DNA of 64,000 nt from Bugula neritina. Taxonomy: Eukaryota > Bryozoa > Gymnolaemata > Cheilostomatida > Bugulidae. The notes beneath the pieces are model-generated. The model saw nothing but the letters and a program-made list of their open reading frames with translations, searched no databases and had not been told where the DNA came from. Numbering within the stretch: position 1 is the stretch's first letter; each line of letters starts with the position of its first letter. The DNA lies in contig OZ037769.1 of assembly GCA_964035545.1 (NCBI GenBank), positions 8,776,929-8,840,928 of the forward strand, given 5' to 3'. A program made the position numbers and the translations under genes. Of this stretch, positions 21,211-64,000 are shown in pieces.

Positions 21211-24200
21211 TCAATGCTTGTAGACACTAGCAATGTGTATGAAGTCTTTGAGAATTATCCCCTCTTTCTGCCAACTAGCCAGAGCTCTCTGAAGTTTCTT
21301 GTATACAGTCAGGAAGACAGGGACAGACTTACATGAGGAGTTTAAGTTGTTCAACATCTAGAACAGTGTTATAAAATAAAATGTTGACAAATTTTGTACA
21401 ATGATATGTATTTATGTGTAAACTGCTTTTCCTTTACCATTATTGGCCGATAAACTGACAAAAACAATATCAAAGTTTGATTTTTTGTGAAGAAAGTCAT
21501 TATAGCAAGAAATTTATCATTTTTAAGAAAAGGCTATTGGCTTCCACACCTAATTTCACATAGAAATTAAAAGATCTTTGGTAAAATGGCTATTTTTATG
21601 CGGATGTAACACCATTGACAGACTATATAATATTATATAGAGTATATATTATATACTCTATAAGTATATACATACTTTGACAGAATATATATACTCTATA
21701 TAATATACAGACCTTGATAGACTATATATATACTCTATATAATATACATACCTTGATAGACTATATATATACTCTATATAATATACAGACCTTGATAGAC
21801 TATATATACTCTATATAATATACATACCTTGATAGACTATATATACTCTATATAATATACAGACTTTGATAGACTATATATACTTTATATAATATATAGA
21901 GCATATAATATACACTCTATATAATATACAGACCTTGATAGACTATATATACTCTATATAATATACATACCTTGATAGACTATATATACTCTATATAATA
22001 TACAGACCTTGATAGACTATATATACTCTATATAATATACATACCTTGATAGACTATATATATACTCTATATAATATACATACCTTGATAGACTATATAT
22101 ACTCTATATAATATACATACCTTGATAGACTATATATACTCTATATAATATACATACCTTGATAGACTATATATATACTCTATATAATATACAGACCTTG
22201 ATAGACTATATATACTCTATATAATATACATACCTTGATAGACTATATATACTCTATATAATATACAGACTTTGATAGACTATATATACTTTATATAATA
22301 TGTAGAGCATATAATATACACTCTATATAATATACAGACCTTGAGAGACTATATATACTCTATATAATATACATACCTTGATAGACTATATATATACTCT
22401 ATATAATATACAGACTTTGATAGACTATATATACTCTATATAATATACAGACCTTGATAGACTATATACACTCTATATAATATACATACCTTGATAGACT
22501 ATATACACTCTATATAATATACAGACCTTGATAGACTATATATACTCTATATAATATACAGACCTTGATAGACTATATATACTCTATATAATATACAGAC
22601 CCTGATAGACTATATATACTCTATATAATATACAGACTTTGATAGACTATATATACTTTATATAATATATAGAGCATATAATATACACTCTATATAATAT
22701 ACAGACCTTGATAGACTATATATATACTCTATATAATATTCATACCTTGATAGACTATATATACTCTATATAATATACAGACCTTGATAGACTATATATA
22801 CTCTATATAATATACAGACCTTGATAGACTATATATATACTCTATATAATATACAGACCCTGATAGACTATATATACTCTATATAATATACAGACCTTGA
22901 TAGACTATATATATACTTTATATAATATACAGACCTTGATAGACTATATATACTCTATATAATATACAGACCTTGATAGACTATATATACTCTATATAAT
23001 ATACAGACCTTGATAGACTATATATATACTCTATATAATATACAGACCCCGATAGACTATATATACTCTTTATAATATACAGACCTTGATAGACTATATA
23101 TATACTCTATATAATATACATACCTTGATAGACTATATATACTTTATATAATATACAGACCTTGATAGACTATATATACTCTATATAATATACAGACCTT
23201 GATAGACTATATATACTCTATATAATATACATACCTTGATAGACTATATATACTCTATATAATATACATACCTTGATAGACTATATATACTCTATATAAT
23301 ATACAGACCTTGATAGACTATATATATACTCTATATAATATACAGACCTTGATAGACTATATATACTCTATATAATATACATACCTTGATAGACTATATA
23401 TACTCTATATAATATACAGACTTTGATAGACTATATATACTTTATATAATATATAGAGCATATAATATACACTCTATATAATATACAGACCTTGATAGAC
23501 TATATATACTCTATATAATATACATACCTTGATAGACTATATATATACTCTATATAATATACAGACTTTGATAGACTATATATACTCTATATAATATACA
23601 GACCTTGATAGACTATATACACTCTATATAATATACAGACCTTGATAGACTATATACACTCTATATAATATACAGACCTTGATAGACTATATATACACTC
23701 TATATAATATACATACCTTGATAGACTATATATACTCTATATAATATACAGACCTTGATAGACTATATATACTCTATATAATATACAGACCTTGATAGAC
23801 TATATATATACTCTATATAATATACAGACCCTGATAGACTATATATACTCTATATAATATACAGACTTTGATAGACTATATATACTTTATATAATATATA
23901 GAGCATATAATATATACTCTATATAATATACAGACCCCGATAGACTATATATACTCTTTATAATATACAGACCTTGATAGACTATATATATACTCTATAT
24001 AATATACAGACCTTGATAGACTATATATACTCTATATAATATACAGACCCTGATAGACTATATATACTCTATATAATATACAGACCTTGATAGACTATAT
24101 ATATACTTTATATAATATACAGACCTTGATAGACTATATATACTCTATATAATATACAGACCTTGATAGACTATATATACTCTATATAATATACAGACCT

Positions 24201-26776
24201 TGATAGACTATATATACTCTATATAATATACAGACCTTGATAGACTATATATACTCTATATAATATACAGACCTTGATAGACTATATATACTCTATATAA
24301 TATACAGACCTTGATAGACTATATATACTCTATATAATATACAGACCCTGATAGACTATATATACTCTATATAATATACAGACCCTGATAGACTATATAT
24401 ACTCTATATAATATATAGAGCATATAATATATACTTTATATAATATACAGACCTTGGCAGCAAGAACTCGAAGAGAATCAGCATTCTTCGTCTGCTCCAG
24501 AGCAAGCACAGCTGCCATAGCAACTTTAGCATAAACATGAACCTTCCAGTAGGTGTTCAGCTCTTTGGGTTGCAATGCTTCCATCAACACAATAGAGTTT
24601 TGCATCTCCAAAGGAGAAGAAAATTCCTTCTTTACTAGCATACTGCAAGTTAAATCACTGCATATCAATCCATTCTGCAGGTAAACTATTGTAATAAAAT
24701 GATTCCCTGTTGGTCATGTAATTGCTTCAACACAACAGCATATGCAGAAATATTTCAAAAAGGGCACATCTAGACATATAAGCTCCAAGGGTAGATGTTA
24801 ATGCTAGTAGTAGATTACAAACTGCGTACTAGAGAACATAACTAGCTAATATATTGTGCTCGTAGACGTCTGTATCCAAAGGGGTAACCTCATGATCTGG
24901 AATGTTCTCTAATCTGTAGTCTAAGGTTTCTTGCGTATATGACATCATTTCCTCCTTCAAATCAGCTGTAACTAGCTCATTCCCCACAAAACCTAAACAC
25001 GTGAACATTGCTTGATGTCTAATGATGATTATATATATTGCTTAAAGAGCTGTTTTGGAAAAATTATGCATTCATATCAGAATAATGTTAGCATATGATA
25101 GCCTTTCCAAGTTTTATGTAACAGTAGTATTTATTTTTGATTAAATTACATAACTAATTAAATTGAGTGTTTTTGATAAGGTGCAAATGTTACATCCAAT
25201 AAAAATTTATGTAAGTGCTTTATTATTATCTTGAAACAATCTGGTTTTCTCTTAGAACAACAAAGTTTTCAAACAGTAATATACGTACATCTACTAAATA
25301 GAACGTTATTTAGAGCAGCACTATTTAAGAGCTTTGTTATGCTACATGTTAACTGATTTGAGTGAGTTAAACAAATTTATTACTTTATAATGTTTAATTA
25401 GAGTTAGCAAAGTATTAATGCTTTGATGTGCATAGTTGTATTAATAAATGAAAGTACAATTAAGAGCACCGTAGCAATATACGCTAAGAGTTCAAGTTAT
25501 ATATCCATGCAGCAACAACGTTACAATGTTGTGCATAGACCATTTTTATAAATGATAGCATTATTATGATGCAGATTTTGTTTTGAAACTTCAGCTATAT
25601 GAAAAAGCATTTTAATTTCAATCTTGATGAGTTAGGTCAACATATGATTTACAATCATCTCCAATGCTTTAGAACCTGACTGCTCTCAAACTTATAGCAT
25701 ATAGCTCAATACACCATGATATAATCAATCTAACAACCAGCTCACCGGCAGCAATAAACTCTTCCCACAAACAGGTGAAATATGTGGCATCATCTACAGT
25801 CTGCAAGGAAAGAATTGCTGCTCCAAGGTCTTCGGGTCTGTAACTATAAAAATATTTATAATCATAATCATGCAGTTGTAATACTGTGACAGCATATGCT
25901 TCATCAATGTAATGCTATAGTAGTTGATCCAGCAGACAACGTAAAACATTTGGCCAAAAACTTACTGAATCTAAACATTGAGCATATGACATGTAATGTG
26001 TTGAACACATTACAGCAATAAGAAAAAGAACACAATATTATAAACAATAGACAGAATTATGAGCTGACAACAAAAAGTAGACAACTACTACGAATCATGG
26101 AATAGTTTGAATTACCATAATTCCCTCAGTGCAGCTTGGTGCAGTGTCGGCACAAAATACAGGTTATTCAGGCCATCTTTGTCTGGTACTTCTTTTACTA
26201 TACCATCAATCTTTTTCACTGGCATAACAGAGTGGCATAATTTTCCATAAACGTTGATTACAATTCATGTTAAACCAATACTCAATAAAATATATAGCTG
26301 CAAGAATGAAATTACAATTACGATGCATTCACATAATATATTTGTGTTAATTAAATAGTAAAACTATTAAATTGCACTAAAATTCTTAAAAGTAACATCA
26401 CAAAAGCTCTGTTTTTCTATACTGATATAGCATAGTTTGCTGGTTATCAAAGTTAGTGTTGGCAAGCATTACAGACATGAGGTGCTGGTTTTCAACGATT
26501 ACATTTGATAGAGTTATCTTTTCTATGTTGCAAATTCGTGAAATTCTTTAAAACCAGTGACACTTGACAGGGTTGCAATATAGCCGACTCTAGAGTCTAG
26601 AGTGTTACTTATACTAGTCAATGTCACTTAAAGGTCACTCACCTGACTCAGATACGCCACTAGAATCTCCTTCACAAAGACTACTGTGTAACTTCACCAG
26701 ATTCAGATAAAGCTGGGCTAGTCTTATCAGCCCCTTCTTTGCTTTGTCTACTTCATTTAAGTTCAACTCTCTTTCA
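21211..26776 (-). CDS. ADCY10: Cyclase exons 28-33: C-terminal helical repeats and stop
   Basis: Exons are 26643-26776, 26116-26218, 25746-25843, about 24889-24992, 24453-24674 and 21211-21297. They read NEVDKAKKGLIRLAQLYLNL, YFVPTLHQAALRELW, DDATYFTCLWEEFIAA, NELVTADLKEEMMSYTQETL, HVYAKVAMAAVLALEQTKNA and finally KLQRALASWQKEGIILKDFI, ending HIASVYKH and TGA. The last two exons join in phase 0 across the 3.1-kb satellite-filled intron. The donor of the exon starting at 24992 could be further downstream than 24889, because the frame stays open to a stop near 24832. Confidence 0.72.
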
Positions 26777-29700
26777 CTGAGAAAAACAAGCAGCAAATAA
26801 ATTATTGTTAAATATTTAGGCAGCAGCTACTTGTTTACTTAAATAACCACTAGGACAAACATATTTTACATATAACAAAACGTAAAGGTAAAATCCAACT
26901 TTTCTTTTTTGGTAAACTTTAGTTACATTTACAGAAAAGCTGAAATTTAACAAGAACTGCAATTCAAACTTTTCAACATTTATCAACATAATAGTAAACA
27001 AGAAGAACTGGCATTTTACAACTGGAGTATAAAACACTGAAGCACTTACAATACATTTGTTTTGTTCACTATTCTGTGAAGAGCAGAGAACTTGGCCTCC
27101 TGTTGATAGTGGTGTATAATATTGCCGTAACAGATGAGCACCTCAAACTCATCCTGAGTGTGCTGACTGATGCCTAGACTGGTATCTAGCAGAAGCTGTA
27201 CTACGGCTGACCCCTTGCTCGTGCCCTGACTGTGGTACAAAGAGGAAAGAATTCTACTAACCTCCAGCTGGGCACTGGCGTCTGTTGGTCTGTCCAAACA
27301 CAGTACTAGTGTTAGCATATGCGACAAACTGGCTAGCAAATGTAGCAGCATATTCTGTTGATTGAATCTTACTGAATGTCACTCAATCTCAGAGCATCTT
27401 ACAGTAAGCCTAGGGCCACGGCGCGTATTTTCGCATGCGAAAATTGAAATCACAAGTAGCAAAGGTGTCCACTGTAGCGTCAGTGATGCGTGATAAATAA
27501 AGCATTCATTTTTAAATCGCACTCGCTTTCAATAAAACGCAATTTACTGGAATGTAGCACTAAAATAAAGAAATTGGGCTCGCTGAATAACTACCAGCCA
27601 ATTAGGTGACGACGACAGAGACGATTCGCACTTGCGTTGAAAATGCAGAGCGACAAGTGCGAATGTTTTCTCAACGCGCACAGTGGACACCTTTGCTACT
27701 TGTGATTTCAATTTTCGCATGCGAAAAAACGCACCGTGTGGCCCTAGGCTAACTGAAGCCAACGTAACACAAACAGGATAGAAGAGTAACCTGATTTGTT
27801 TCTTTAAGGTTTCTGGAAGACAACGTCTAGAAAAGTCTAGCAGTTTGCCAATGCCTTTCTTTAACCTTTTAGCTGAGATACCAAACAGCCCATCTGGAAT
27901 ATTTACTTGCAATTCTTCTAGACTAGCTGAATACAATGCAGAGGCTTCTGCATACTCTCCAACACAACAATGTACCTACAAGAGAACTCTGGTTACGTTA
28001 TTCAAGCTTTATAGTCTGAGAAATTTAGGTGTAGGGTTATAATGTTAAAATCAGCTGAAGAAAAACTTGCAATGTTATTTATTGATACATTAGCAGCTAT
28101 ATACTGTATGAGCATTCAAGCTTTTTCATATTTTATTTTAAACAGTGGGTAATGCAGTACTTGTATATGAATTTTAACAATGGTATGTACACATTAGACA
28201 AAAACAGGTTATTAAGCTCGGGTATTTTACTATTTTGTAAATTTATAAATTTCATAGTTTAATTTTATGTTTTTGTACTTCATTTTAATGCAAGTTTACG
28301 TATGCCACGCTGAGCAACACTTTTGACTAAGGTGTTGGAATTATAGGTTTGTTACTAAAACCTAGCAGCTATATGCTGTACATGCTGGCAGTACTATATG
28401 CTAATAAAGAAAATGGAGTGGCCTTTGCACATACTTCATTTACTTTTAGATTAGGTAGTTTGTATATCATGCTGCATAAGTCAGCATGATATACAAAATG
28501 AATTAATATTAAGTTAGTGCAAGCCATAACATAAGCTTTAACAGCAGGCATTTGTATTGAAAGTTAATGCTTTCAGTTAAACTCAACATTCCAGGCTATT
28601 CAACTCCAATAAAACAAATAATTTAGAAAAACATGGAGAAGTAAATAGTTTCATTGCTCATTTACAATAATTTTAGTTTTATAGTTTGAAATAAAAAAAT
28701 TAAAAATTCTTAAAATAATATATAATATTGTGAATGCTGAACGTAAGAGCAAGGTTACAGCATACTTTTACATTCAAATATTAATAGACTCACAAGTGCT
28801 ATTAAGGTGACGAGTTTAGTAGAGTGGGACACCCAAAACCCCTCCAGTAATTCTGTCTGGTCTGTAAGAGGCTCCCCAGTCAGAGGGTTTATCTTCTGCT
28901 TTATTTTAGTCGCGATAAGATGAGCAAACTTGAGGTAGATGTAGGCCTAACACACAAAACCACACATTGGCTCAATAGATAACTATAACTAAAACAAATG
29001 ACTTCAAAACATACTTGAAAGCCTAAAACTTAACAGTGGTATGGTAGGAAAGGGTATACCACACACCGCTAACCATGTTTATATAGCGATAAAGATGTGA
29101 GCCTAAATATTGATATCTAGCAAATAATATTATTTTTATTATTTTTTATAGCCAATATCTTATCCTAATATTACATATATTCTTTAAATCATTATAAAAG
29201 CATATTTAATTAATATTCAAACAAATATTTATAATTGGTGTTCTTATTGGAATCAGTTGCCAGCATAGCTCTACAGTACTAAATAATTATTGTCACACTG
29301 TTATTTAATGATTATAGATTTTTAAAAACCAGTAGTAATAAAATTGACACTATTATTTTTGAAATAATAATATAAATGAATTTATTCTATCTTTGATTAC
29401 AAAACTCATAATTTATAACCACCTTTAATGACTTTATGAACGAGTTACAGTGTTAGCTAGGTAGCTCATGTCTATGTCATGTCTATTGCTAAACATTCTA
29501 ACCTGTTGAAGGAATCGGTGTTGCAAGGCCACACAGCCAGCTTCTACTAAAGTAAACAGGGTGTTCTTGAGATGCAATGATGACCTCCAGTGCCAAAGTG
29601 TTTGTCTGAACAAATTAAACTTGCTTTCAGTGTCTACATCAGCTTTTCTGAAAAATATGAAATGAACTTTATTTAGCAAAATAAAATACAATATTATAGT

Positions 29701-32700: not shown

Positions 32701-35700
32701 CAGCTGCTCAGTCTAACGTATGTGTATAGGTTTGGTTTGTTTGCTGGCAGCGCCAGATCTGTTCGTTCTTCTGGAAGCTTTAGAGATTTGCAGTCAGCAA
32801 ATATGTATGAAATGTCGTCTGCAAGGAAAGGCAACTCCTGGCATGTCAGTTCTTCAACCGTCTCGTTACTCAAGTGGCTAACCTGGTGGACGTTTATAAA
32901 TAATTCCAAGATTAGAACATGACTAATGAAATATGTATGGTTTTAAAACATATGACTAATGAAATACATTTAATTATCACCTTATTACTCATCTCATTAA
33001 TAATTTCATTCAGAGAAACCTTTTGAGTTAAAAAACGTGTATTCAAGACTTAAAAATTACAGTATCTAATTTTGCTAAAAGCCAATAATTGGCAGATAAA
33101 GGAAATACACTTGGTGAGATTGTCACTCAGTGGATTGCATTGTAAACTTAGTAAACTAAGTATTGTCATAATATTATATAGAAAACTTCTCTGATAATAG
33201 ATAAAAATATGGTTTATTTACACAATTTAATCTTTAGGGCCATTCTGATAGTTATACAAATCATTATGTAACTCTTTTGAAAAGGTATTTCATGCAAGAA
33301 TGCTGCTTTAAGCTCATCAGTGTATTATTATTGATTAATTGTCGAATGTGCAATTAAAAAACCTATAAACTTCTCTTAAACTCAATCCTTCAAACACTTC
33401 TACTTCAAATGTATACCCACACTGCATTAAGACTATAAAACATCAGCTAGCTGCTTTATTCTACATGCTGAAAGCTTACATTAACTACTCACAGAATTCT
33501 CCAAGTATTTGGCCACTTTGTAATGCATCTCACATCTCAAGTCTTCTACTAGTATAGAATACACAGTGTCCCTCATTAGATGGTTTCTAGCAATCAGAAG
33601 AAACTAGTTACTTGTTTACTACACAATATTATAGATTTACTACATAAAATAGTGAATTTACTATGACAAGCCATGAATTATTTCAAAATATCTCATAATA
33701 TAGTAACTACATGCAATACTTACAGAATAATAACACGTTAACTAAGAATGCTATTTTTATATATACATCTTTTAGGTTACTCATGCAACTAAAACAATAT
33801 TAAAATCAAATTTATTTTCAGCTGCGCTACTTAGTGTTGCTAATAATATTAAATCTGTTATAATATGCTTATATGAGTGCTATACATTATAATAAGCAAA
33901 GTCGCAATGTGCAAGTTCAACAAATTAATATTATACTGTGGTCATTAGTAGGGTGTGGAGAAGTTGGAAAATAGACATAGGAGCCTTTTTATAGCTCTTC
34001 CAATGACATTTTATTAAAATATTGCAACAGCTAGCTGACCTACTCAAAATTTTAAAAATATATTTCAACATGTGAATGGGAGCACTGACAGGAAGTATAA
34101 CCTGATTGGTTAACATTGACCTGTATTATTTAAAGTGGTCTGTTTTAACATCTACTTTGTACATTTATATGATCAGTATATTTAGTTTATCATGTTGAAA
34201 TAACTTCTACTTACGTAAAGGTTATTATTCTACACATGGATACGCAGATGCTATCATCACATATACAGTTGTTGTGCATCTCCCGGCCACTCAACTACAA
34301 GGTTACACATTATGAATACAGGCAGCATGTATAACTTCACTAACTGGTAGTGAGCTAGAAAGGCTAATATACACTTTGTTATTATACATAAAATGGATTC
34401 ATGCATTAGTTGGCATTTTCATTTACTTATGATATGCGTTTCATCCGATTGACAATATACTGTCCCCATGCATTGAATGAAAAGTCCATAATGTATGATA
34501 GAGTATTCTATCTCTAAATAACCTCTTTATAACATTTCCTTTCACGAATAATTAAACTACATCAGCTATACTCGCTCCTAGACTGCTATTTATCTGAAGG
34601 TTTTATTTATAGTTTAAGACATAACCTGTAGTAATAATCCATTTTAAAGTAAAATAAAAACAAGTTATTTAAAAAAAATTGTTGGCAGTTATAGGAAACA
34701 CATGGATACAAAATGATGGCATACTTGAATATAGCATGTTGCATGTACATTATAGAGATGACATAACACAATAGATAGGAAGCATATGTATATTATAAGA
34801 AAAATATGTACAACTCGGTTATATCATACATACATCAGGGGATTACTAAAGTTTCCATGAAAATAGGTACTTGTTGCTATGCAAACTACGTAAATGCTTT
34901 TCTAGTATAACATGTATTTAGAGAACAGTTTTGTATATTTACATTATTGGGCAAAAGCTATATATAACATTCATAACACAGATAATGTAAAGCACGTATT
35001 ACCTTTTTTGTGGCAGCATAGCAGCGGAGGAAGTCCTTACTGAACAAGGTTTCCAATGCAGTGTTGAGAGTGGCTGTAGGAAAGGGCCAGAGTATATGGA
35101 GTATCTGAATGGAGCACACAACTCCGATGACAGAAGCACATTTCAGCACCAATTGTTCTGATGGGGTCAGTTGGTCTATCTCAATCAACAGCTGCCCTAA
35201 ATTGTCGGAATCACGTTGACTAGTTTAATCTTAATTAGTATACATTTACACAAAGTTTTGTTTTTATCATCACTTTTCCAAAATATGTATCTGTTCGACA
35301 GAGGAGGTGGCAATGTAAAGTGTTGGGCCTTTAGTTTTGGTGCAACATGTTGCAAAAATAATAGCATTTTATAAAATTTGGATAACTATTAAACTAGAGA
35401 TTTGTTTACATAAAAAATATTTAGGAATTTTATAGCATATAAACAACTTGTACACACGAATTCCACTTTAGGTACAACTCAAAACTTTTCAAAACACTGA
35501 TTAGTCTATAAAAACTGCATTAGAGATAAAGTTAATTTAAGCAGCTGACATTCCTTATAAAGCTGACTAATTGTAGAAGCAGGTGAGGTGCTGACTTACC
35601 TTTAAGGCTACTCGGAGTTTTATAAGTAGCTGCCGAGAACTGTGACCTCGGAGAAATGATACAGATCCTGTCTTCTGCAGGGTCTCTAGTCTCTGGTAAC

Positions 35701-41700: not shown

Positions 41701-44700
41701 GGTATTCTACTCCTTGACCAGCCTCTAGCTGTGTTGAAAATTAAAAATGCAGCAGATTATTGAAATATAAAAGTAACGGCAGTTAGTGATTAGTAGACAT
41801 CTTTAATTTAGAATAATATATTTGCATGTATGATTTCTATATATATATCAGTTTACATTTAATCTAAATAATATAAAATAATTTGTAATATTTTCTTAGG
41901 ATTGACTAGTAAAAATTTTTCAACAAATAAAATGCTGAAGACTGGCAAACTAAAAATATGATTAAAATAAAGATGGAGTTGTCTCCTCTAAGAAAGTGTA
42001 CCAGCTAGATTGTGTTGAACTTTTTTTTAAATATTTTAGTGTTTTTAGCATTATTTGTCGATTTGCAAAAAAAATTCAAAAAAAGAAAGCAGGTTTTCAA
42101 TAGACTATAGACTTAAACTAAAAAAATTCTATTTGCAGCCTTGTTTTTACAGTTTGTAAAGATTGATGACTATCTCAACCAGGGTATCATTGGTTATATT
42201 CACAGTTTTCAATAATGGCGAATACCAATTTCGTTACTTTCCTTACCTTATCTAACACTATGTCTGTAACATATTTACTAAGTGTCTCATTCAGATGTAT
42301 GCCAGTTTCAAAGGCTGCCTTTCGATACACTTCCCCTAAATTACATTGTGAGTTTAGACAAGCATAACAGTATATCACTTCCCCTAAATTACATTGTGAG
42401 TTTAGACAAGCACAACAGTATATCACTTCCCCTAAATTACGTTGTGAGTTTAGACTAGCAGAACAGTATATCACTTCCCCTAAATTACATTGTGAGTTTA
42501 GACTAGCATAATAGTATATTACTTCCCCTAAATTACATTGTGAGTTTAGACAAGCATAACAGTATATCACTTCCCCTAAATTACATTGTGAGTTTAGACT
42601 AGCATAACAGTATATCACTTCCCCTAAATTACATTGTGAATTTAGACTTGCATAACAGTACATCACTTCCCCTAAATTACATTGCAAATTCAAACACACA
42701 GTATTTCAGTAACTGTAGCAGTATGCAACTCTGCAGTGTAATTATACTACAATGAAGATTCTGAAAGCCCCAAATAATATATTTAAGTATAGAAAATGTT
42801 TATTCACCTTTTCTCTAATACATAGTGGAGGTACACAAGTTTGATTATACATTTTAGATAAGCAAAGCCACAATTTATTATCAAATGCCAAATGGTCCAT
42901 TAACAGAAACTTGTATCTTAACATTCACAATTATGCAGATATTTTCAGCCTGATATCAATTATTGAGTTGAAAGTCACCTTTAGATGTCACTGCTGCTTC
43001 TTCTCCCGTGTAATCATACCCACGGGGCATGTCCCCAGAGCCCCCTAGTTGTAAGCTTGTTTTGTCGAGTTGCTCTTGCTTGACTATGCCTGTTATCTAC
43101 ACCAAAATTATGGAGATTGCTATTCAAACAATATGAATTTATTCTTTTGATAAACGAGTTTCTTATAACTAAACTGAAATCGTTAAAATATGCTGTAAAA
43201 ATACTACTTCAAATTGTAATGAATGTTGCATATAAGAATATTGTTTACAGTTAATTCTCATGCAGGTGTTACTGCTATAAACAGCTCACCTTTGCGTGTT
43301 TGCCATCTTCCAGCATAGTATATGAATAGTCTTTTTCTACGCAGTAACTCCACATATAAGGAGACACAATGATGTCCCCAGACTTGCTAAGGGCCTCAGC
43401 GTCTTTAGCGTCCTTTACCGCTGCTCCACTTTCACAGAAAAAGTAGCGGTTGTGGTTTCCAAAAACAAAGAAGTACATTTTACCCAAAGACAGAGCTAAA
43501 AAATACAGAATAATAATTTGGATAACTAAAGGTTTTTTATTGTGTCTTGCAAGAATACAATTTTCAGTGGCAAAGCTATACAAGTTATATCTGTGCTTCT
43601 ATAGCATATTCAATGCATGAAAGCCCTGTTGTGTAAATAATACTATTGCATGCATATGTTACAGAAACATGCCTTTATATTTTCAAGTAATAACCAGAAT
43701 TTTTCTTATGGATTACAACATTTGCAAATTATTTCATGCCATTATGCTCAGATGTTATTGGTTAATTTGCGCTGGTGTTGCACTAGCCGCTATGCTAGAA
43801 AATTCTGTCTATTCATTTTATTTCATAGATCTTTTTTATATGAATTATTAATTTAAAAATTAGATTTCTTTAATAATGCATTACAGTTAGAAAATAAAAC
43901 CAAAATTAAAATATTTGGATATTAATTTCTCAGGTTATGTAATAACTCGAGTATAGTACTTTATACAAGAATGATTGTGCTGCGTGCAAGCTATATCAGT
44001 ACTAGACAGCAATCGTGATGTCACTTGCAGTTTAGTACCTACACTTTGCTGATTGAATAATTTTAATTGACAACTGACTTCTTCAAGTACAAATTTTACC
44101 GAGTAAAACATTGTACACTACATATCATATACACTGCATCTTTTTAACTTTCTATCAGCTTTTTTTGAAGATTCTACTGAAATTTAGCATATATAATACT
44201 AATCAGTTTGCCACTCAGCGTGCTAATTTTGGGTTCATCACACTCAGTACCTCAACTTTGCAGCTCTATATATGTTGTACCTAGCATATGTTGGTTAAGA
44301 CTACAATTTGAGCTACAGCTAAACTTAAGTGTGTTAATTTTAATTTTAATCAAGTAATACGAGTATAAACCAATAAGTAATAAGTTCAATAAGCAAATGC
44401 TACATTCAATGAACAATATATAATGAAGAGATATAGGTCTTCTACAATACAGATTTGGTTCTGATTGAGTCATAACTTTCAGCCATGAAATATTCTATTT
44501 TGTTTCAAACATAAAAAATTTGGTGCTGGAAGACAATACACAACAACCCCAAGCTTTAATAATCAAGATTGCTTGTCTGGCACTGCTTGACAAATCAAAA
44601 ATTAAATTGTAACTGTAACTCAACTTGTATGTACGGATCAAAGACTAAATAGAACATGACTATATAATTTGCAACACCTGGCCTATGATTTGGCTACCTA

Positions 44701-47933: not shown

Positions 47934-50900
47934 GTTTGTTTATATTAATTAGGTCACTGTAATGCTAATGGTGATAAGTAATATTATTACTAGCACAATT
48001 CTTGGCTGACAAAAATGTCTAAACTTTGGTAGGAAAGTTTTTGCTGACAGTCTGGCAGAGAGACGCAAAATGTTATAACAGTCTCGTAGTTATTCAAGTT
48101 TTTTAGTTTATGGCGAGCAAATATTATAGTGTTTGCGTCTTGTAGTTTATGACTAGAGATTTATTGAATATTGTATATAATGTAGTGAATTTTGCCAGTT
48201 CACTATTATTATGTGTGGGTCAACTTAAACAAAGCCACTGCACCAGGTTGTTTACGCTAAGATAACTTTATTATTTACACAAATACAAGAAGGTTATTTA
48301 CTGCTAGCATGAATAGAAAACGATTACATAATTAGTGAGCTTTAATACACAACTACTCTAAATGAAGTCCCAAGCTGCTCTGCCGGCTAGCTACTCAGCG
48401 CACTGCAACTACGAGTAGCTAGCTCCACCTGCTATCAATTAGTGTGCCTGTCCTGATTGGCTAGCGTTAGTGGTGCCACTGTCGACTGTAAGATATTGTC
48501 GGATAACAGTCTACGCCGAGTCCGTCTCGTCGATACTAATTAACTCCATCACCATAAGCATAACACTAGCATCTGCTACTAAGCAGCTAACTGCCAGTGC
48601 ATTAGTAGCTAGCAATACTTGTCCAGCCAAGTACAAGAGAGATTGTACGCATTCCAATTGTCAGCTATTATGATAATTGATCTTTAATACTTATAGCCAT
48701 TATGCCAAGCGTATAGAGAGCAAGCCATGAAGAGTTATCCTTTCGATAATAACATAATCTAAAATCCATTACACTAACAACTCTGGTTAGTATTGCTACA
48801 AATAAGGTGCAGTGCCTGCATTAAAAATTTTTATAATATTTTGTTCTTCCATAAAGTTTGATAGATTTGGTTCCGAGATATTTGCTGACAGTGCTTGAAA
48901 CTCATTGACTCAAGTCCCTTGCTTTAATCTTTGACTTGACTTGACTTGACATGCTCCACTAGTTGGCCTGACTTAAATATTTTTATTGACCAGTTGCAAA
49001 TCTTTCAAGCAACTCAAAACTTCGGGACTGATAGATTTATATTTTAGTATAACTTACATATGGCTATTATAAAAATAATTTTAACTATAATGATTAATAG
49101 CATTTTAATGAAGGCTGTGTAATCAAGCATGACTTCATGTTATATTGTCAGAATACTATAATCACTACAGCTATAGTAATTTGATGGTATTTAACGCTAT
49201 TACAGCAATTTACTTTTAATTTTATTTTCATTTATTAAATATAAGCAACTGCCTACCAATTTGTATATTTACGCTTATTTTTTTAAATAGACATATCATT
49301 ATAGGCCTACATATTAGCTTGTTCATGCACTTGTCAGTCATTTTGATTTTTTTAAATAACTTGACTTGACTTAATTAGCTATTGGTTTGGCTTTCTGTGG
49401 TTTTGAATCAGCTTTGCCTATTTATAAAATTAGAAAGTTAAAATTAAAAGTATCTACAAATTATCTTTAAGCACAAAATTTTTAACAAGAATTGACAAGG
49501 TGATATACATTATTGTCCATATAACAATTGAATTTCGGTGCTGTACAAGTAGCAGCGCAGAAATGAGAGAGTTTCTGTTGGTTGATTAGTTTGGAAACCT
49601 GAACTATACCTTTTATATATATACATGAATCCCTCAATGTTATACAATAATAATGTGTTTCAATACTTACCGCAATATACTGTTTAATCATCATTATTTC
49701 TATCCTCAACAACTTGCACGCGCTCAATTAAATCTGATATTATAATTATACTTACTGTAGCTTGGATTGTATCATACGCTGTAAAATTACATCATGATTT
49801 ATAGCGGTTTCAACTTTCTTAAAATCACAGTAAATTTGTAAGTTTTGACAATTTGCTATTTTATCAAGTTTCAAACAGATAGCTTGTGCATATGGCTTCA
49901 AGTTCAGGGTATATTGTCATGTTTATTAAAATAAATGTTAATAATGAACTAAAAATAGACATTTTCATTGGTGTAAAGAACATAGATTTTTGCATAAAAT
50001 ATGTGCTAAAAGTTTATACACTTAGTAGAGCAATCAAATGTTTAATAAAAGCAAATATATATTTTAGATATTTCGATAAGACTTTGGCCTGTTAGAGGAG
50101 TTGTTAGCCATCTGTTATACAAGAATGTATACTGTGCCATGTGCAATGGAGTGGATCCTTACCAGAAGATCAACCTGGCTGACCAACCTCTTCACACTGG
50201 ATCCAATAACATTGAGACCTCTAATGAGACGTTAGACAGCGTTGAGTGGCTCCCGGCAAATGTTGAATGTGAAACTGATAAAATTAGAGACTATGTGGAG
50301 AACCAGCCAACCAGAGACAAGCTGCTAGCTTTAGTCAAGTCAGTATGAATACATAGACTCCTATACAGCCACATTTTTCTTTACCTAGCAGTAATTTATT
50401 TTTGAGTTCGATGGCAACTTTTTCAAATATTTCCTTAGTGAAACTTGTTTTAAACTTTTGCTTGTTGTTGAAAAAAAGTTGCACTTGTTAGGCTTTGTAC
50501 TAAAGCTTTTACAGAACTTGGCACTTTCAACAGCACAATCATCATTTCTCATTGAGTCACTGTCAATACTTATTTTCATTTTATGTTTATAATCTAAGCC
50601 CAACTTTCTGCTTGCTCTCGTCAAAATGTGAGTTTACTTGTAGCATATAAACTGACACTCATTCTGGGCATTATTATCCTGTTGGTGTTAAACCAAAAAA
50701 ATTGGCATGTGTTGCCCTACAAAATAATCTATAACACAGTCAAACTTTTTGTAGGCCGGAATTTATGCTATAAAAATACTAAATTGTTGTAAGCTATTGG
50801 AATATTCTATTAAGTAGTAAGTCATCTCTTGTACCAGTGTTATGTCACTCTATATTCTACGTTATAGTTTTACTGGACAGGCAGATTTATTACTCTAACA

Positions 50901-53900
50901 TTTTGCAGAGATTGCGAGATTTTCTACCATCCACCAGTTTCACCACACTTGTGTGTAAATGCCATCAGAACTTGTCCAGATCTCTCGAACTTTGAACTCT
51001 CAGAATTGTGTGCGAAAGGACCTGCTAACTATATAAAAGTGATAACTACAAATCAAATCTACAGAAATCAGTTTTGCGCAGAGTGCCATCAGCAAAATTT
51101 AATGAACATTGAGCCAGCAAAGCTTAATGTAGAAGAATTACAACCAGAAAATCTGCAGCTTACTTGGATTAACACAAAACTTTCTCAAAGAGCAAATTCC
51201 ATTGCTAGCAATTATGAAGTGTTGATGAGTGCTAGGTTATCATTGTATCATAATGCAACTGAGTTGAAGTCTTCACGCTTCAGTAGCAGAATAAATGTGA
51301 CCTGCTCCTACTTTGCAGATGATGCATACAGCTTCTGTAAGCAAGATATGACTAATATTACAGGAAACTCAACAGATAGTTCAGCTTCTCTCTGGAACTT
51401 AGGCTCTTTTAGCTGCCATAGTCCTCATGCTAAGGTCTGTGACCAGTTTATAGTAAGCAATGCGAATTCTTCATTGAGTTGCACAGAGCCAGGTTGTGGT
51501 GAAGGATATTTGTTAGATCCAGAGACACTGTCCTGCACTGAAGTAAATGAATTTACCATTCTTCCAAATACTCAGTTGAACAACCTAACATGGCACTCTG
51601 ATATAATGTGTCAATATCTTAGCAGATGTGAAGCTGTCAAGCAGGGACTAATGAAGGAGGATGAGTTGAATTGTTATTGTGATAAGTTTTGTGTTTATTT
51701 TAATGACTGCTGTGAAGATTCTGACCACCAGGCTACTAACCAGACTGCGTTGGAACACGGTACGTTCTCTTGCATCCCTGAACTAAATTGGAATTTCAAT
51801 GTTGTTGATGGCTATGAAATGGGTGTTATGGAAATTGATAAATGCCCCGCCAATTTTGAAAATCTCACCGTCATTGAACTTTGTGATTCGCCTTCTGCAA
51901 GTCTCACATGGAGTTCTCCAAACCTGCCAGTGACAGACATTGCAACTGGGTTGAGGTAATGTTCTAAATACATTACATCAGTATGTCTGTCTCACACTGT
52001 ATGCTGTCGCCTTGGCTCAACTTACTCCTTGTTTGAGTTAGATCATGCCTGCTTTTCTTCAGTCTATTTGTACAAGTTTTGCATCTCTCAATAAGACAAC
52101 TCCAAATTATTTACTCTTCAACTCATCAAACCAATTCCAACTGTATGAGCTCATGTTTCATTAGCAAAACATTCTTTTTATTGGTTAAAAGATTATAAAA
52201 TTGCCCAATACATAGGATGGAAACTTAGCAGACATGGTGTTTATTGTATCTGCTGAGCTGTAAACTCATTGAGGAATTTACATTGTAGTTGTCCGATTTT
52301 AGTCTTTGAACACTTTGAACCCTCTTGTGTAGGGATCAGAGCTCGAATACACACAGGAGTATGCAATACCTTCCTCAGTTTTTAAAACCTGACCTCAGCA
52401 GCACTGCCCCCATAACAACCCTTTGTAAGCACTCGACAACAGCGCATGTAGTTGAGGGGGAATGCTGATAGAAAGTAATTGCACTAGGATAATTTAACAT
52501 AGCTCATAATAATGTTCAAAATATAAGCCTAATCATCCTAATCACAAACTTTTTATATGTTATTTTACTCTGAAAAGGCTCTAAATTCGTCTCAACTTTT
52601 AAGTTTAAACTCTGCTGTCCTTTTCTGGCATTCCTGTTGAAAAGACTGAAAAACGTTAAGGCTCATGACATTTTAGATGCTAATATTTGCATACTTTAGG
52701 GTACCCTCATCATTTTTTTCAAACTTTCACCGCATCTGTGATTCAATTTTATTAAAACTACTATCTGAGCTTTTATTAACCGAGTTGCTTCACTTGTTCC
52801 AGTGCTACTACCTAGTGTTATCCTATTCATCATAAATATAATTCTAATAATTATATTTGTAAGGCACATTAGTAAATTTGGCTAAATTATGCTAACCAAA
52901 TTCACTAAAATAATTAGGCAAACTGTATCACTGCCGGTATAGCGGAAATGCTGAACTGAATTCTTATTTGTTAAGAGGTGAGATTCTGGCTAGCTAATGA
53001 TTAGATGTTCATGGCTATGTGTTGGCATGTTACAGTGTGACTAGTAGCATAGAATGGATGACCTATTGAAAATCCCTTAAAGCAGCACTGAGCCGATGGT
53101 CACTGAGTGCAACTTTTTGGAGGAGGGGTTGGGAGAGTGAGGGTCTTGAGTTTGGGGTTAGGAATTTAGGCAACGACAACTCAGTCACCCAAACTCAGTG
53201 TTGCTAGCTACATTTCAGTACTTCTGAAATGATGGAGCTGCAGTTAAATGCCATATTTTATGATGAAGAAACATTTTATTTGCTGTTTCTTTATGAATTG
53301 TCTATAATAAGAGCTTTTATGGTATAGTCTATCATTTATATTTGATTTTACTTTGTAGGTATTCTAATATGTACTGTGCCATGTGTCACAAGGTAGAGAA
53401 TTTTCTCTTCTGGAGGTTAGAAGTTGGGTGTATTGAAGTAGCTAATGACACATGCACTCAACCAATCAGAACAGATGTAACAAGTGATGAATTTAAAGAT
53501 AACGTTCAGATGTTCCAAATGGACCCTGGTATTATTCAGCTGAAAAGGTATAAATCTAATTCATCATGTATTTCGTAGTTATACAATCTAAACAAATTAT
53601 TATATTTCGATTAAAGTGATAGTAGGTAAAAATGACAAATAGAAACGTCCTTTGCTGTTGACACATTGCGCTAATAGGAAAGAAATGTCAGATATTTTTT
53701 AACTTAGCTGCTGTGATAAAAGTTGTAGATGTTACTATAATCAACACAAACATGTAAACTAGCCCTGCGTTGTGTTTAAAATGACTTAGACATATATCCT
53801 ACATTCTACAATATTAAATACAAGGTGTTACTTCTAATCTAGTCCTATGATATTTAGCACATAAGTAAGCAATGCATAACGATTGTTTTTTATTCAAGTT

Positions 53901-56051: not shown

Positions 56052-56198
56052 GTCACAACTTGATACAGGATTCCTACTAGTCAGTGTGTGACTATGTTTT
56101 ACTCTCAGATACAAGTTACTATAACTAAATTGTTTATTTGTAAACTATTTATATTCTTTTATCTGTTGCTCATATTATTTTGTTAATAACATTGAATC

Positions 56199-56204
56199 AA
56201 TAAA
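56199..56204 (+). terminator. Poly(A) signal AATAAA of GPCR copy B
   Basis: A canonical hexamer lies about 150 bp after the copy B stop codon in AT-rich DNA, at the expected distance for the 3' end of this transcript. Confidence 0.6.
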
Positions 56205-56870: not shown

Positions 56871-56879
56871 AACCGTTAT

Positions 56880-57298: not shown

Positions 57299-57309
57299 TA
57301 TTTATAGAT

Positions 57310-58850
57310 TTTGAGACATGAGTTTACTTGTTTATATGCATTTAGTAAGACAATGTAACATAGATCACTCTGCAAACATATAACTGCATGTTAGAAATTG
57401 CAAGTAATTTCTGTGAGAGCTGCTTGATAACTGTAACCAACCAGCTTTATTATACAGGAAACACTTATATAACAATATAATAATAAAATTAGCAACAAGT
57501 CCTGACTCTCCAGTCTCACTGTTTTACATCAGCTTAGGGATGCTATTACAAAAAAGGTGCTAAAATTCTCTTTGTAAAATGTGAAATATTTTTTATTATT
57601 CTGAATTTATAGTAATTATTAGTTCGACAGTAAAGCAAATCCAAATCAATATTCAGCTATATAAAGATTTAGGTTATATTAGAAAACCAGGGTTTGAGAT
57701 ATATTTGATTCTTTCTTGCTGTTGCTTTATAAAGTGTGTACTTTTGTTTTTGACAATGATTGAGAAATTGTCTTCCTTTGGTTCTAAGTTTGGAAGATTT
57801 ATTAATACTAATTCCCTTTGGTTAAACTTATACATAAGGGGTAAAAATAAAGTTTCTATTTTCATAATTGTTATAAATTAAAATCAGATCCGGCCTAATG
57901 GAATACATCTTAATTTTATATTACAATTGCAATTATATTAGGTAACAATCTACAAATGTATTAAAATAAGGCTTTCAATTAAATATGTGTTCAATATTGG
58001 TACAATTAGCAAAACATTCTAAAAAAATAGCATTCAGTCAGTTTTGTATCATAACTTCGTAACTTTCATAATTTGAAGCTCAATCACAGCTATTGGTTTT
58101 AATTAGAATGGAAGAAGATTTAATTTCAATATTTTCATAAACTAGTTAAATGCTTACTTTTAAATTTGTTTATAATGCTGCTTTAATAAGCTCTATCTAC
58201 TCAGTATGCGTTATCATTAAAGAGGGTTGGCTGAAAAATCTTTGCTTGCAGATATCATTATACTTGAAAAAATACAAAGAAATTAGAAAACTGAGAGGGT
58301 AACTCTTCATTCTATTCACCTAATACTTTGGTCAAGGCTTAAAGTATATCTATCTAAAAATAAACATTTTTGGCCAAGTCTTTGCAATTGCATTATAATT
58401 ATAATTTTAAACCTATTTATATGCTATACACATATATTTGAAATTTTGCTTGATATAAAATGCTAAACATTTTGTTAACACATATAATTCTGGTATTTTA
58501 AAATACACAGAGAAACTTCTGCACAAGGTGGGTACACATGTGCCCACCCTTCTCCTGTGCTCCAGTGAAGGAAGACAAGCAGCTAAAATTGTAGCTTTAA
58601 ATTGGCATCTCTACTCTTCAGCTCTGAGCAGTAGTAGGCATTGTTTGCTAATGGCATATAAATATCATCGATTCTTTCATTTCAATTGAAATATCTTCAA
58701 TTCTAAATTATAAGTGTCTATTGATTAAGTAATGCAATAGGCCATGGCAGGTTACAACACAGCTGAAGATCTGAAAGCAACTAATACATGCAGTTTAGTG
58801 TAGATCGGGCGCTCATTAGCTCCTTTTGCTATTATTTTGCCAACTTTACT
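57310..58850. other. Intergenic before the TRPV gene, no gene recognised
   Basis: Long AT-rich stretch with only chance frames. It probably includes the TRPV promoter near its right end, but no promoter motif is convincing. Confidence 0.4.
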
Positions 58851-58893
58851 CGGCACACAAATTTCCGTGGAAATTACAAAACACGTAATTATT

Positions 58894-58905
58894 ATGAATA
58901 AAATG
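58894..58905 (+). CDS. Candidate first coding exon of the TRPV gene
   Basis: ATG-AAT-AAA-ATG is followed directly by a consensus donor GTAAGA. It is in phase 0 with the acceptor at 59776, giving [13 protein letters not shown]. The spacing and phase fit, but the evidence is only the donor and the ATG. Translation could equally start at 59780. Confidence 0.35.
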
Positions 58906-59779
58906 GTAAGATAACGAATATTTATTTTTAACTTTTTTTAAATAGTAATTTTTTGCTGGTTTCTTTGCGCTTGCTTCAAAGTATTTTTTTTAAGTTCCAG
59001 CAGTTGCTTTCAAAATTGTTATATAAAAATAAGACAATTAGTTATTTTTTGATCATATATAGTATATACTTTTGCTTTCACAAAATCGTAGAGTAAAGCT
59101 GCAGGCTTTGGGATTCTATTCTTTAGTACAATTTGACACTTTATAAATACGAGAACAGCGACACCATGCAAAAGAGAAATATTTGAGTAAACTGTTTTAT
59201 GTATAACACAGCTATGACTGCCTGTCAAACAGCCTAAGGATGATCTGCTGGGCAGAAACTGAAGGTGATTCTGATTTAGGATGGCAAGCAAAGAAAGAGG
59301 TGGGCTTCTACACTTGAGTCAACACCCATCAAGTTTATTAGTGGATCATAGATCAGATATTATAATTATCAAAATGCAAACAATACAGTTCCGTATGAGT
59401 GCACCATCACTATGTCTATTAATATGTTGTGCAAAGCTATGAGATTAAAAGTTACAAGCAGTGATAAAAAAGGAACTCTGATCTCTATCTAAATTAATTT
59501 AGTGTCATTTTCACCAATCACAAACTATATATATTTTGGTTTATACAGTTATAAAAGTATTACTATATTATTATACTTGTTGCTAAATATTTGATTTATT
59601 TTGTATGCAATTATTTTTGTTGTTGTAGTTTATACGCACTTCACCACACATATTAATTAAATATGTAGTTTATATGCTGCTATATTATACAAATCATGCA
59701 ACCAATCTCAGCATAAAATTTGCTAAAACATTTTCAGCTATAATATCCATTGATAGATTTATATTATTGGCTGTAGGAA

Positions 59780-62700
59780 ATGAAGAGCAACCCAATGTAC
59801 TCTCTTATGGATGTACAAATGGGCGGGTTGATGGTTGAAACTTATGAGAAAGAAGGAGTCCCTGGCATAGAGCGACTGTGTAAAGTAGAAATAGCCAAAC
59901 ACTACCTCTACAGCCATGGCAAGGGTCAGGTTATTAGTCATTCAGATTATGCTGATTGGATGAGCACATCAGCTGCCCAAAAGGTATAGTGTTTACATTC
60001 TTTAGAATGCTGGATAAATCCTTGATGAAGAATAAAATAGAATAAACCCTGTGAATACAGCATCTCAGTCAGTAATTTCTTGCAATAGTTTATTAGTTGG
60101 TCGACCTTGTCCAGTCGTTTAATAACATATTTTATGGTATATATAGTATTATATGTTATGAACATGTCATAGTGTCATAACATAGATACATATATCATCC
60201 TGCCAATGCATTGCGATATATAATAGCATGATTTACTCAAGTAAAATAAGCTTTTAACAACTAAAATTGCACCATTATTACAGTATACACAGCACTAATT
60301 ATCTCAGTCCAAAGAATATTTATCAGAGACTATAAATGCATAACTTCAGTCATTATTAAACTAGAAAGTACAGAAAAGTTGCAAATAATATGCATAATAA
60401 GCAATGGTATTCCGTAAAAGTTAAGGCCCTGCTTAAAACTTATTAAATGATAAAAGAGCTTCTCTTTAACAATATCTTGCATACTGCTGTCAGTTGAACT
60501 TTAAAGTGTTGAGAAGTATGCTGCCCGTGCTTCCAGCTGTTGAAGAGCAAACAAATGCCTATAGCACAGTTGATTACTGAAACTAAAATCCTTAGCAATA
60601 ATCAATATGAAATACAAAGTAGTTGAAAGAAACAAATATAATCTAATTTAAATTATCATAGTACCTAAAAGTAAATGTCCACAATATTTTTATTTTAGGC
60701 TTATGCATAATATATGTACTATGAGTGCTAAAACTTGAATTAAAATTAGGTATTTAGAACCTGCCATATATTTTGTTAGATGCATATTGTAAGCTAACAT
60801 ATTTTGTGTAGAAATAGTAATAGTGTCTTGGCAACTTGTTTAAATATTCTCGATTGTTAGAACACTAATAGTATTTTGGTAAAGAACCCGTGCATCAAGG
60901 GGGTCTATAAATAAAAGTTACAGGGGTGTATGGGGGTAGAAGAAACCACTTTACACATGTATGATATATGAGGTCACACACATCCTTGCTGTAGTTATAT
61001 GCATGGTGCTAGTTTTACATAATTCATAAGCTGCAGCTTTATTCAGAATTCCTGAATTTCTTGATATGTCAATATAGGGATAAACTTATGCAATGGCTAC
61101 CTACAGATTTTATATATACTAGTTCTAATTTGTACAAGGAGTATTATAGACTGAGAACAAATTATGAAGTTATTATGCTGAGAGTTTAGGGGAACAGAAA
61201 GCTTTTCATACTTTCGCTGACCTGCTTTAGAATTGATAGTCAGCATTAGATAATATCAATGAATGAATTGCTCCCTATGGTATAAATATTTACAATTTAA
61301 TTTTATCTTCATTGTTCTACTCTAATTGCTCTACATGAAAGTTTCTACTGATAGTAGATCCTTTATTCTTAGCCATTTGTCTGATATAATAGGCCAACTA
61401 TTATGCTCTATTTTCAGTATTGGAAATATGTAATGATAGACCAGTTTCCTTTTGATCATTAAAATAAATGACAAAATCAATAATGAAAACTGGCAATTGC
61501 ATCATCTGTAACCAACACTTTTACTCTGTAAATACTAAGTTTGTTTTTTTTTTTGGTAGTCTCAGCCTGGCTATATAATATGCTCAGTGACTTTAGTTGC
61601 CTAAGATAAACATTAGGTGTCCCAAACAAACTTGTCTCCTTACATCATAGGGTGACAGCTCTGATCTTCATCAAGGCAACTGGCAATAGCTAGTAGTTTG
61701 ATTATCTAAACGGCCGTTTTATTTTTGCAAACTAAAATCACATTTAATGGTTTTGATTGCAATGGTTTTGCAAGAGTAAATCTATACATTAATCAGATAT
61801 TTTATCATATATTTAAAATGATAAATATGCAGAAAGATGAGGTAATTTTATTGTATATTAAACAGATTGAAAAACTTCTGAACTTTTGACAATTTGGCAA
61901 ATGCCCATTACTCATTCATTTAAAGAGCATGAAAGAAACTTGAGTTAAAGCCATTTACAGGATTAACTAGTTCAATTCATACGATTATTATTATGTCTCG
62001 TAAAACTGCCAGTTCCATGCACTCTTTATCTATACTGTCAGTTAATTAAAACAGAATTACAAAAAAAGACTTTAAATTTAGGATGACTGTTCAAACCATA
62101 GTAACACGGACTACACTAAGAACAGATTTGTGAGATTTACAAACCACAAAGCATGTTGGAAATTACATAAAAGAGGTGTACTTGGCGAGACCATACTGCA
62201 TCTCTGCTATCATAATAATACTCCAATACACATAGAGATTGCAAAGGTGCTGCTGCAGTTATACCCACGCCTAGCCTTGGATATCACAGAAGGAGAAGAG
62301 AAGTATGGTAGGTCTAAACTTTGGTAAAGTAGACATCTAGCCATACAAAAACAATTAGGATGTATGCTACAGAGTTTAAAATATATATTTTGGTCTTCAT
62401 CAATTTATAAAAAGAGGATACTGACCCAAGATATTCCGTACCAAACCGCTTTAGACAACTAATAAATTCTCAATTATATTTGCATTCAACCAACATTTTT
62501 TACATCCTATTCACTAAAACTTTGAGGAATATTTATCAATGCAACAAGATTATTTTTACTTCATAATTGTGATTTATTGTTTTTGGGCTAAGGTACCAGT
62601 TTTAAAACAGCTTAAGATATACTACTGCTAAATTACTGCTGCTTTGTGTGCCATCTTTCCAATTAGTAACTAGAAACTCATGTTTCAAAGTATGTTGCTA

Positions 62701-64000
62701 AACTACATTGCATGGTGTTCAATTAACATGTTGAAATATTATACACCAAGTTATTCGTATGAACTCAACCTGTACTTTAATAAATAGGTCAGAGTGCCCT
62801 CCATCTGGCTATTGTAAATGGAGACTTGGAGTCTGTAAAACTATTGGTTGAAAGTGGTGCTGACGTCAACCAACCTGCTACTGGTAGATTCTTTCTTCCC
62901 GAGGACCAGAAAGAGAAGAAGACAAACAATAGCAATTTTGTTGGTTAGATAATTTAACACAACATTGAATCTTTGGTTAGATAATTTAACACAACATTGA
63001 ATCTTGTTAGATAATTTAACACAACATTGAATCATTGGTTAGATAATTTAAACACAACATTGAATCATTGGTTAGATAATTTAACACAACATTGAACTGT
63101 TAGTAGAAAGCATGAAAGCATGAAATATCATTCTATTGCATACATACAAAAGTAAAGTATTTAGTTGTATTCTTTTAAAAATCACACTTCAAATTATGGA
63201 ATTATTTCTGCAAAAAAGTTTCATAGTTGTGTTTTTCTAACAAATGGCTGTATTTGTGTTATGAACATAAGATAGGCAATCGTTGCTATAGACTAAAAAG
63301 AAAGATATTTTATATTATTGATGAAATTATTCTGAGTGAAAATAAGCACTTAATATGTATTATATTGATTGTTAAGTAATAATTAAGCCATTGAAATGAT
63401 AGCTATTGTTGTAAAACAGTACTTGAAGAACCACTGCTTCTGGAAATAATGTTCTATGACTATTTAAGTAAAGGCTCCGTATAAAGCTCTTAGGGCTGAA
63501 GCTGGGATTTATTATTCAACTTGAGTTTCATTGTTGAGAAATTCAAGTAACTTTTCATCTGTCTGTAGTTTTCAAATATTGACCAAAGCTTTGACCAGTT
63601 TCTAAGTTTGTGTATTAAATGCAAGCACTGCCATCCAAATGTAGCAGCACTTTTTCACTATCACTCATGATAGCAAATATCTCGCTCATGATAAAAATTA
63701 AGCAAACCACCAGCTCACAATCATATCTCAATTGCTGAGAACAAAGTTTATTTTGGATAGTAAATATGCCTCTTGGAGGTAATGACATTAGTTTATTTGA
63801 AGCTCAAAGTAATTCAACTATCAACTGAGCAGTGTTTATACCTGGCTAGCTTTATCATGCAAACCATTTTTAATTTTTGAGTGCATCAAGTTAACAAGCA
63901 CAAGTATAACATACTGCAAGTTGTCTATGAAGTCTAGACTCATTCACACCCATTTATTTACCCTGGCTTTTTAGGTTACGCTTATTATGGGGAGTTCCCT
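59780..64000 (+). CDS. TRPV-type cation channel (Nanchung/OCR-like), 5' part; runs off right edge
   Basis: Exons are 59777-59983 (in-frame ATG at 59780), 62082-62307, 62788-62943 and 63975-64000 onward; phases 0,1,1 all agree. The product reads [44 protein letters not shown], an ankyrin repeat [20 protein letters not shown] followed by [20 protein letters not shown], and GYAYYGEFP. These strings match the N-terminal ankyrin region of invertebrate TRPV subunits, which act in ciliated mechanosensory and chemosensory neurons in model animals. The pore lies off the edge. I place it nearer the Nanchung/OCR branch than Inactive/OSM-9 by wording only. Confidence 0.82.
60000..62081. other. TRPV intron 1, nothing further recognised
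   Basis: A 2.1-kb AT-rich intron. No exon in phase, RNA gene or tandem repeat was seen. Confidence 0.45.
62941..63094. repeat. 31-bp tandem array starting at the TRPV exon 3 splice donor
   Basis: Five units of TTGGTTAGATAATTTAACAC plus AACATTGAATC (31-33 bp). The first overlaps the last bases of exon 3, and the true donor is TTG|GTTAGAT at 62943-62944. Three of the four further units repeat TTG|GTTAGAT exactly; one has TTGTTAGAT. Confidence 0.93.

Follow-up and report, generated by a model that had tools for sequence, protein, structure and literature searches.

Minisatellites at exon-intron borders of the bryozoan Bugula neritina: probable mirage-type arrays, mostly at 5′ splice sites

Three arrays in an ADCY10-like and a TRPV-like gene

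The window analyzed here is a 64-kb stretch of the Bugula neritina genome (C5:8776929-8840928, within an assembly of 215.8 Mb and 295 contigs) that holds a minus-strand ADCY10-like gene, the N-terminal part of which matches named ADCY10 proteins, and a plus-strand TRPV-like gene recognized by alignment with Drosophila Inactive. Arrays 1 and 2 are hosted by the ADCY10-like gene and array 3 by the TRPV-like gene (table 1); a first-pass annotation had described all three, and all three were recovered by TRF. The ADCY10-like gene sits between two long open reading frames on opposite strands (1467-2660, minus; 50868-51959, plus) that have long identical protein stretches in common and are, on this basis, probably paralogous receptor-like genes. 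One open reading frame in the window matches a Bugula neritina protein at 76% identity over 98% of its length. Exons were predicted with a gene finder trained on the genome's own sequence (the window and the additionally fetched DNA) with arrays masked, yielding 265 predicted introns.

Table 1. Arrays and adjoining exons (window positions unless a contig is given; a slash marks the exon-intron border)
Feature	Position	Strand	Basis
Array 1, 37-bp minisatellite, 75.8 copies	21630-24456	-	TRF (row 21650-24456; left edge 21630 once overlapping rows are merged)
Predicted penultimate exon, ADCY10-like gene, end GCCAAG/gtctgt	24453-24642	-	Gene finder only
Predicted last exon, ADCY10-like gene	21211-21357	-	Gene finder
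Array 2, 48-bp minisatellite, 7.4 copies, unit with TTTAG/GGGAAGTG	42328-42684	-	TRF
Exon adjoining array 2, if the acceptor is TTTAG/GGGAAGTG	42247-42335	-	Copies scored; ambiguous start
Array 3, ~32-bp minisatellite, ~5 copies, unit with TTG/GTTAGA	62941-63096	+	TRF
Exon of TRPV-like gene, end TTGTTG/gttaga	62788-62943	+	Gene finder and homologue alignment
Junction array, 36 bp, 23 exon bases	C2:437-914 of fetched block		Exon from gene finder
Junction array L038, 20 bp	C1:48548-48945 (= C1:10048548-10048945)		Exon by eye on -; program gives + strand exon

The final 4 bases of the penultimate ADCY10-like exon lie inside array 1, as judged from the masked gene prediction and TRF, and the array occupies most of the last intron (21358-24452; 3.1 kb), leaving a gap of ~270 bp to the next exon. 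Its unit carries CAAG/GTCTGT or CAAG/GTATGT, such that many AAG/GTCTGT and AAG/GTATGT sites are found across the array; 17 of the 297 GT positions in this stretch score above the authentic donor, and scoring of the copies and of the divergence per copy indicates that many, but not all, retain splice signals. In the TRPV-like gene, the final 3 bases of the exon fall inside array 3, which stops ~880 bp short of the next exon; when this exon and the one starting at 63975 are joined by hand they remain in frame and give a gapless alignment with Drosophila Inactive over the join.

Array 2 is the sole 3′ case in the window and, among the three arrays, the least certain junction case, as it may be exonic. 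Its final copy reads TTTAG/GGGAAGTG with the first exon base at 42335, which would place 8 exon bases in the unit; the masked gene finder instead sets the acceptor at 42314 (exon 42247-42314, minus strand), and homologues favor coding sequence upstream of 42314 (RKA aligned). Tentatively, array 2 could be coding, that is, part of an exon with up to seven additional 16-residue repeats within a variable cyclase loop rather than an intronic 3′ array. A 48-bp unit corresponds to 16 codons, the adjoining exon's frame runs open through the entire array and loop length differs among homologues; against this, several differences between copies alter residues, AG acceptors in every unit would compete and, given three frames, so long an open frame is not rare. 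The array and the following exon together form a single open frame (42187-42705, minus strand) with 16-residue repeats of the type NSQCNLGEVIYCYACL, possibly a coding VNTR or a set of nested in-frame alternative acceptors.

The first-pass claim that the arrays abut exons and copy a splice site hence stands for arrays 1 and 3, both at 5′ sites, and is in doubt for array 2, the 3′ case, which may be coding. The 3 to 8 exon bases per unit that it gave agree with those found here (4 in array 1, 3 in array 3 and, if the acceptor is right, 8 in array 2).

Introners are typically bordered by AG/GT, and the AG/GT borders seen here would suit repeats delivered by introner-like or transposon insertions, but the units contain each host gene's own exon bases. 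In genome searches that pass over simple repeats, no second copy of array 2 was found elsewhere, 60 bases of array 3 used as query matched array 3 only, and matches to array 1 reached just 71-81%, in arrays of similar composition; near-identical copies at many unrelated loci were thus not seen for arrays 1-3, and we rejected an insertional origin as extremely improbable.

Junction arrays in the local sample and across the genome

The local sample comprised the window and 116 kb from elsewhere (179,766 non-N bases, with 150 kb fetched beyond the window), of which the block C2:20000001-20050000 (L039-L043) has N at 34,234 of its 50,000 bases, from either a gap in the assembly or a stretch that was withheld. 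It contains 12 large arrays (TRF score ≥200, period ≥10). Chance placement had been judged unlikely in the first-pass annotation, and this is supported by the assignment of five of the 12 to junctions (P = 0.0025 at an expectation of 8.8% per array), a figure that takes in the three discovery arrays; it is less secure outside the window, where the proportion is two of five (P = 0.065) and one of the two exons was read by eye. This last exon, at C1:48548-48945, has no Pfam match. A scan of exon borders with small arrays included gave a weak excess, with three or four array edges within -5 to +2 bp of predicted junctions against 1.1 expected; among these is C1:48548, for which the program's strand is opposite to the reading by eye.

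In an edge-score test, arrays 1 and 3 stood out along with one small array; array 2, C1:48548 and C2:437 did not, and neither did the large window arrays at 6493, 11421 and 14420, the latter in keeping with their earlier description as lying off exons. At base level the trend was reversed: repeats (score ≥12) contain 3 of 262 donors and 0 of 261 acceptors versus 25 of 376 random intron positions, in counts that are dominated by long arrays, exclude exon-covering arrays and miss the array 1 donor. Because of the P value of 0.065 outside the window, the misses of the edge test and the opposite sign at base level, the local sample by itself is only suggestive of junction seeding, and the stronger evidence lies in genome-wide motif counts.

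We counted tandem triples, defined as three copies of a motif 12-42 bases apart. Across the whole genome, the 5′ splice-site motif AGGTAAGT forms 1,689 triples versus 9 for the reversed motif, with only a 1.5-fold difference in single occurrences (10,267 vs. 6,689), and AGGTGAGT forms 1,579 triples versus 75. The control motif GATGAGTA, of the same make-up as AGGTAAGT, gives 359 triples and its reversal 263 (singles 6,337 and 8,247, respectively). Raw matches overstate the excess, since one long array can supply most of them (a single array accounts for 88 of the first 100 GATGAGTA matches listed), and distinct arrays are therefore the fair unit. When these were counted by hand from the matches listed for contig C1 only, we found at least 23 AGGTAAGT arrays (a lower bound, as the matches listed reach 33.96 of 35.64 Mb), at least 18 AGGTGAGT arrays, one GATGAGTA array and none for the 3′ splice-site motif TTTTNCAGG; two GATGAGTA arrays lie on C2 among the matches listed. 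Relative to single occurrences, AGGTAAGT yields 14-fold more arrays than GATGAGTA (P = 2e-4; C1 arrays over genome-wide singles), and extrapolation from C1 at 4.3 matches per array gives an estimate of ~390 AGGTAAGT arrays genome-wide.

The 3′ motif behaves differently. TTTTNCAGG is as common as AGGTAAGT (10,429 singles; reversal 4,595) yet has nine triple matches in three arrays genome-wide, of which the one on C2 also contains CAG/GTGAG and could belong to the 5′ class. That 5′ motifs exceed both control and 3′ motifs in arrays is observed directly. Junction arrays recur across the genome far above control motifs, in support of the first-pass view, and the portrayal of 5′ and 3′ junctions as alike is not supported.

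The same counts weigh on an account without seeding, by which minisatellites are born at arbitrary places in a genome rich in repeats, those that invade exons are purged and the shared splice consensus mimics anchoring. Minisatellites are indeed common in this genome, only a weak excess is seen when all arrays are counted, few arrays were sampled outside the window and random border-straddling births would likewise scatter the lengths of exon sequence copied; however, array numbers should then follow single-motif counts, at odds with the 14-fold difference on C1 and with the three arrays that TTTTNCAGG yields in all, and the copied exon segments (up to 33 bases) are longer than any consensus. 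We regard this account as unlikely.

Sequence upstream of all 23 AGGTAAGT arrays on C1 was taken, and the best exon ending at the first array donor was scored against 6,320 random positions. This exon test gave P < 0.05 in nine of the 23 arrays (binomial P = 8e-7; L049 at 0.0500) and P < 0.1 in 12; a further four exon ends were read by eye (L051, with a test P of 0.14; L052, with 0.16; and L064 and L065, unscored because the repeat finder begins the array beyond the exon end). A probable exon end is hence found at the start of 16 of the 23 arrays, and the start of arrays in probable coding-exon ends is likewise a direct observation; at the other seven (L055, L056, L058, L059, L060, L062 and L071), no exon was seen at the array edge. 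Ten exon translations compared with Pfam gave matches to caspase (L053) and OATP (L066, and L057 exactly at the cut-off), matches below the cut-off to Ig (L049) and phosphofructokinase (L068), and none for the remaining five, one of which (L054) matches monocarboxylate transporters (MCT). An earlier measure, since superseded by the exon test, had found coding potential above threshold in the 60 bases before the array in six of 20 cases versus a background of 7.8%. By eye, none of three GATGAGTA arrays, inspected on one flank each, starts at an exon end, a number too small to carry much weight. Two arrays (L059 and L074) end ~45-60 bp from the 3′ splice site of a neighboring exon on the opposite strand, as read by eye; these exons appear vinculin-like and RhoGAP-like.

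The arrays on C1 are crowded toward the ends of the contig, which may not be telomeres: the outer 5 Mb of the span covered by the matches listed hold 16 of the 23 AGGTAAGT arrays (6.8 expected, P = 8e-5) and 16 of the 18 AGGTGAGT arrays lie within 5 Mb of an end (5.1 expected, P = 1e-7). This crowding, on a single contig, suggests that array growth may be linked to recombination.

Unit composition and conservation of the splice motif

Exon sequence within the units was compared in 18 five-prime cases (14 C1 arrays, window arrays 1 and 3, C1:48548 and C2:437), in which 1 to 33 exon bases are repeated per unit, with 42 in the ambiguous L063. The first-pass annotation had the arrays hitting the junction to the base; instead, breakpoints scatter around it, which implies duplications that straddle the border rather than begin exactly on it. 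At L066 the repeated exon bases encode SLYV, of which SLY aligns to human OATP1B3, and the position of this repeat within a stretch aligned to the human protein indicates that copying proceeded from exon to array. At L063 (C1:26999055-27000455), two in-frame 24-bp units (VIIPTSKSVIIPT) possibly lie inside the predicted exon, and array units may there have become coding sequence unless a weaker first donor is used. The 25-bp unit GTAAGTATATATACTAACAGTAGAG at L049 (C1:54916-56316) resembles an intron in miniature: it has a 5′ splice site, an AG and, like a branch site, the motif TACTAAC.

Another explanation would be that selection retains numerous 5′ splice sites, if extra U1-binding sites where the intron begins aid splicing or shield long AT-rich introns from early polyadenylation. 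It would fit the favoring of 5′ over 3′ motifs and the finding that, in 10 of 14 arrays, the splice motif has diverged less than the remaining unit sequence (Wilcoxon P = 0.09), but 10 of these 14 were themselves selected for exact AGGTAAGT copies. Among the four arrays not so selected, the motif is better kept at C1:48548 (P = 5e-6) and weakly so at C2:437 (P = 0.055), equally kept in array 3 and worse kept in array 1 (P = 7e-10). Better conservation of the motif across copies is hence not general, and we consider selection of this kind quite improbable. In L038 itself (the C1:48548 array), GTAAGT is nearly invariant across 20 copies and the rest of the unit varies, a constancy that could hint at upkeep of copied 5′ splice sites.

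Origin of the arrays and relation to known systems

We think it likely that these arrays are junction minisatellites of the type termed mirages, arising by a duplication that straddles the border and subsequently growing into the intron, mostly at 5′ splice sites. A short tandem duplication across the exon-intron border would copy the splice site together with the adjoining bases of exon and intron, and later slippage or unequal recombination would add copies that reach further into the intron; we infer this mutational route, as well as the contribution of recombination to growth. At a 5′ site the copy nearest the exon presumably remains in use, and the protein would be unchanged because the remaining copies are removed with the intron. 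Conversely, 3′ arrays should be rarer, since an extra 3′ site ahead of the true one would be met first by the spliceosome. Junction arrays appear to be spread over the bryozoan genome, with the 5′ kind at an estimated hundreds of places, and often put a series of copied splice sites at the start of the intron.

Tolerance alone would bring 5′ sites only to the level of neutral intron sequence, and the excess over controls therefore requires that arrays be born or maintained preferentially at 5′ splice sites. One possibility, which we advance with reservation, is a mutational process that prefers strong 5′ splice sites, such as transcription- or U1-coupled breaks or template switching, combined with recombination toward chromosome ends. 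If so, the 5′ splice site would itself be a hotspot of structural change at which exon ends are repeatedly made into minisatellites.

Mirages are reportedly present in amphioxus Adh, in work attributed to Canestro in 2002. In a study of amphioxus globin genes, minisatellite-like duplications of intron-exon boundaries are described under this name, taken from the Adh work, with units of 10 to 160 bp that contain exon bases and a splice signal, in both 5′ and 3′ cases; splicing was regular by RT-PCR and a link to intron gain was proposed (PMC3087553). PGBD5 and TnC are further amphioxus mirage genes in another paper (PMC3902484), and what is described in three others (PMC12783039, PMC4039745, PMC3045353) was judged a different thing. 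The bryozoan repeats resemble mirages in that they span the exon-intron boundary and include exon bases (arrays 1 and 3 and the 16 other five-prime cases) and in that many, though not all, copies of array 1 keep splice signals. They differ in that amphioxus mirages are known from single genes of a cephalochordate, whereas the bryozoan arrays, read from genomic DNA, occur at hundreds of places by estimate, are strongly biased to 5′ sites and are crowded at contig ends.

The arrays are also related to two other phenomena. In a model of intron gain attributed to Rogers, introns reportedly arise via tandem duplication of AGGT segments, with an RdRp gene of potato given as a case. Here, too, a tandem duplication copies an AG/GT border, but that border belongs to an existing intron, and neither array 1 nor array 3 lies in an intron with the duplicated segment at both of its ends; their other intron end is outside the array, and hence they are not introns newly made by duplication. 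Ordinary intronic minisatellites likewise have periods of tens of bases and many copies within introns, but occur anywhere in the intron and contain no copy of an exon end, as in the other large arrays of the window.

A literature search of partial coverage found no report of junction minisatellites outside cephalochordates or at genome scale. The feature is real and recurrent; it belongs to a type that is known but has received little study, and occurs here on a much larger scale. What is new relative to the amphioxus mirages is another phylum, a genome-wide scale, the strong 5′/3′ asymmetry and the contig-end crowding, and the surprise lies in the preference for 5′ sites over both 3′ sites and the control motif. 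In the literature found, junction minisatellites have so far been an oddity seen in a handful of amphioxus genes. If, as estimated, this protostome genome holds hundreds, it can be tested on many cases at once how such arrays originate, how they are spliced and whether they play any role in moving or generating introns. With 3′ cases nearly absent, the genome also offers a natural experiment on spliceosomal choice between repeated sites, and the crowding at contig ends connects the question of these arrays with recombination.
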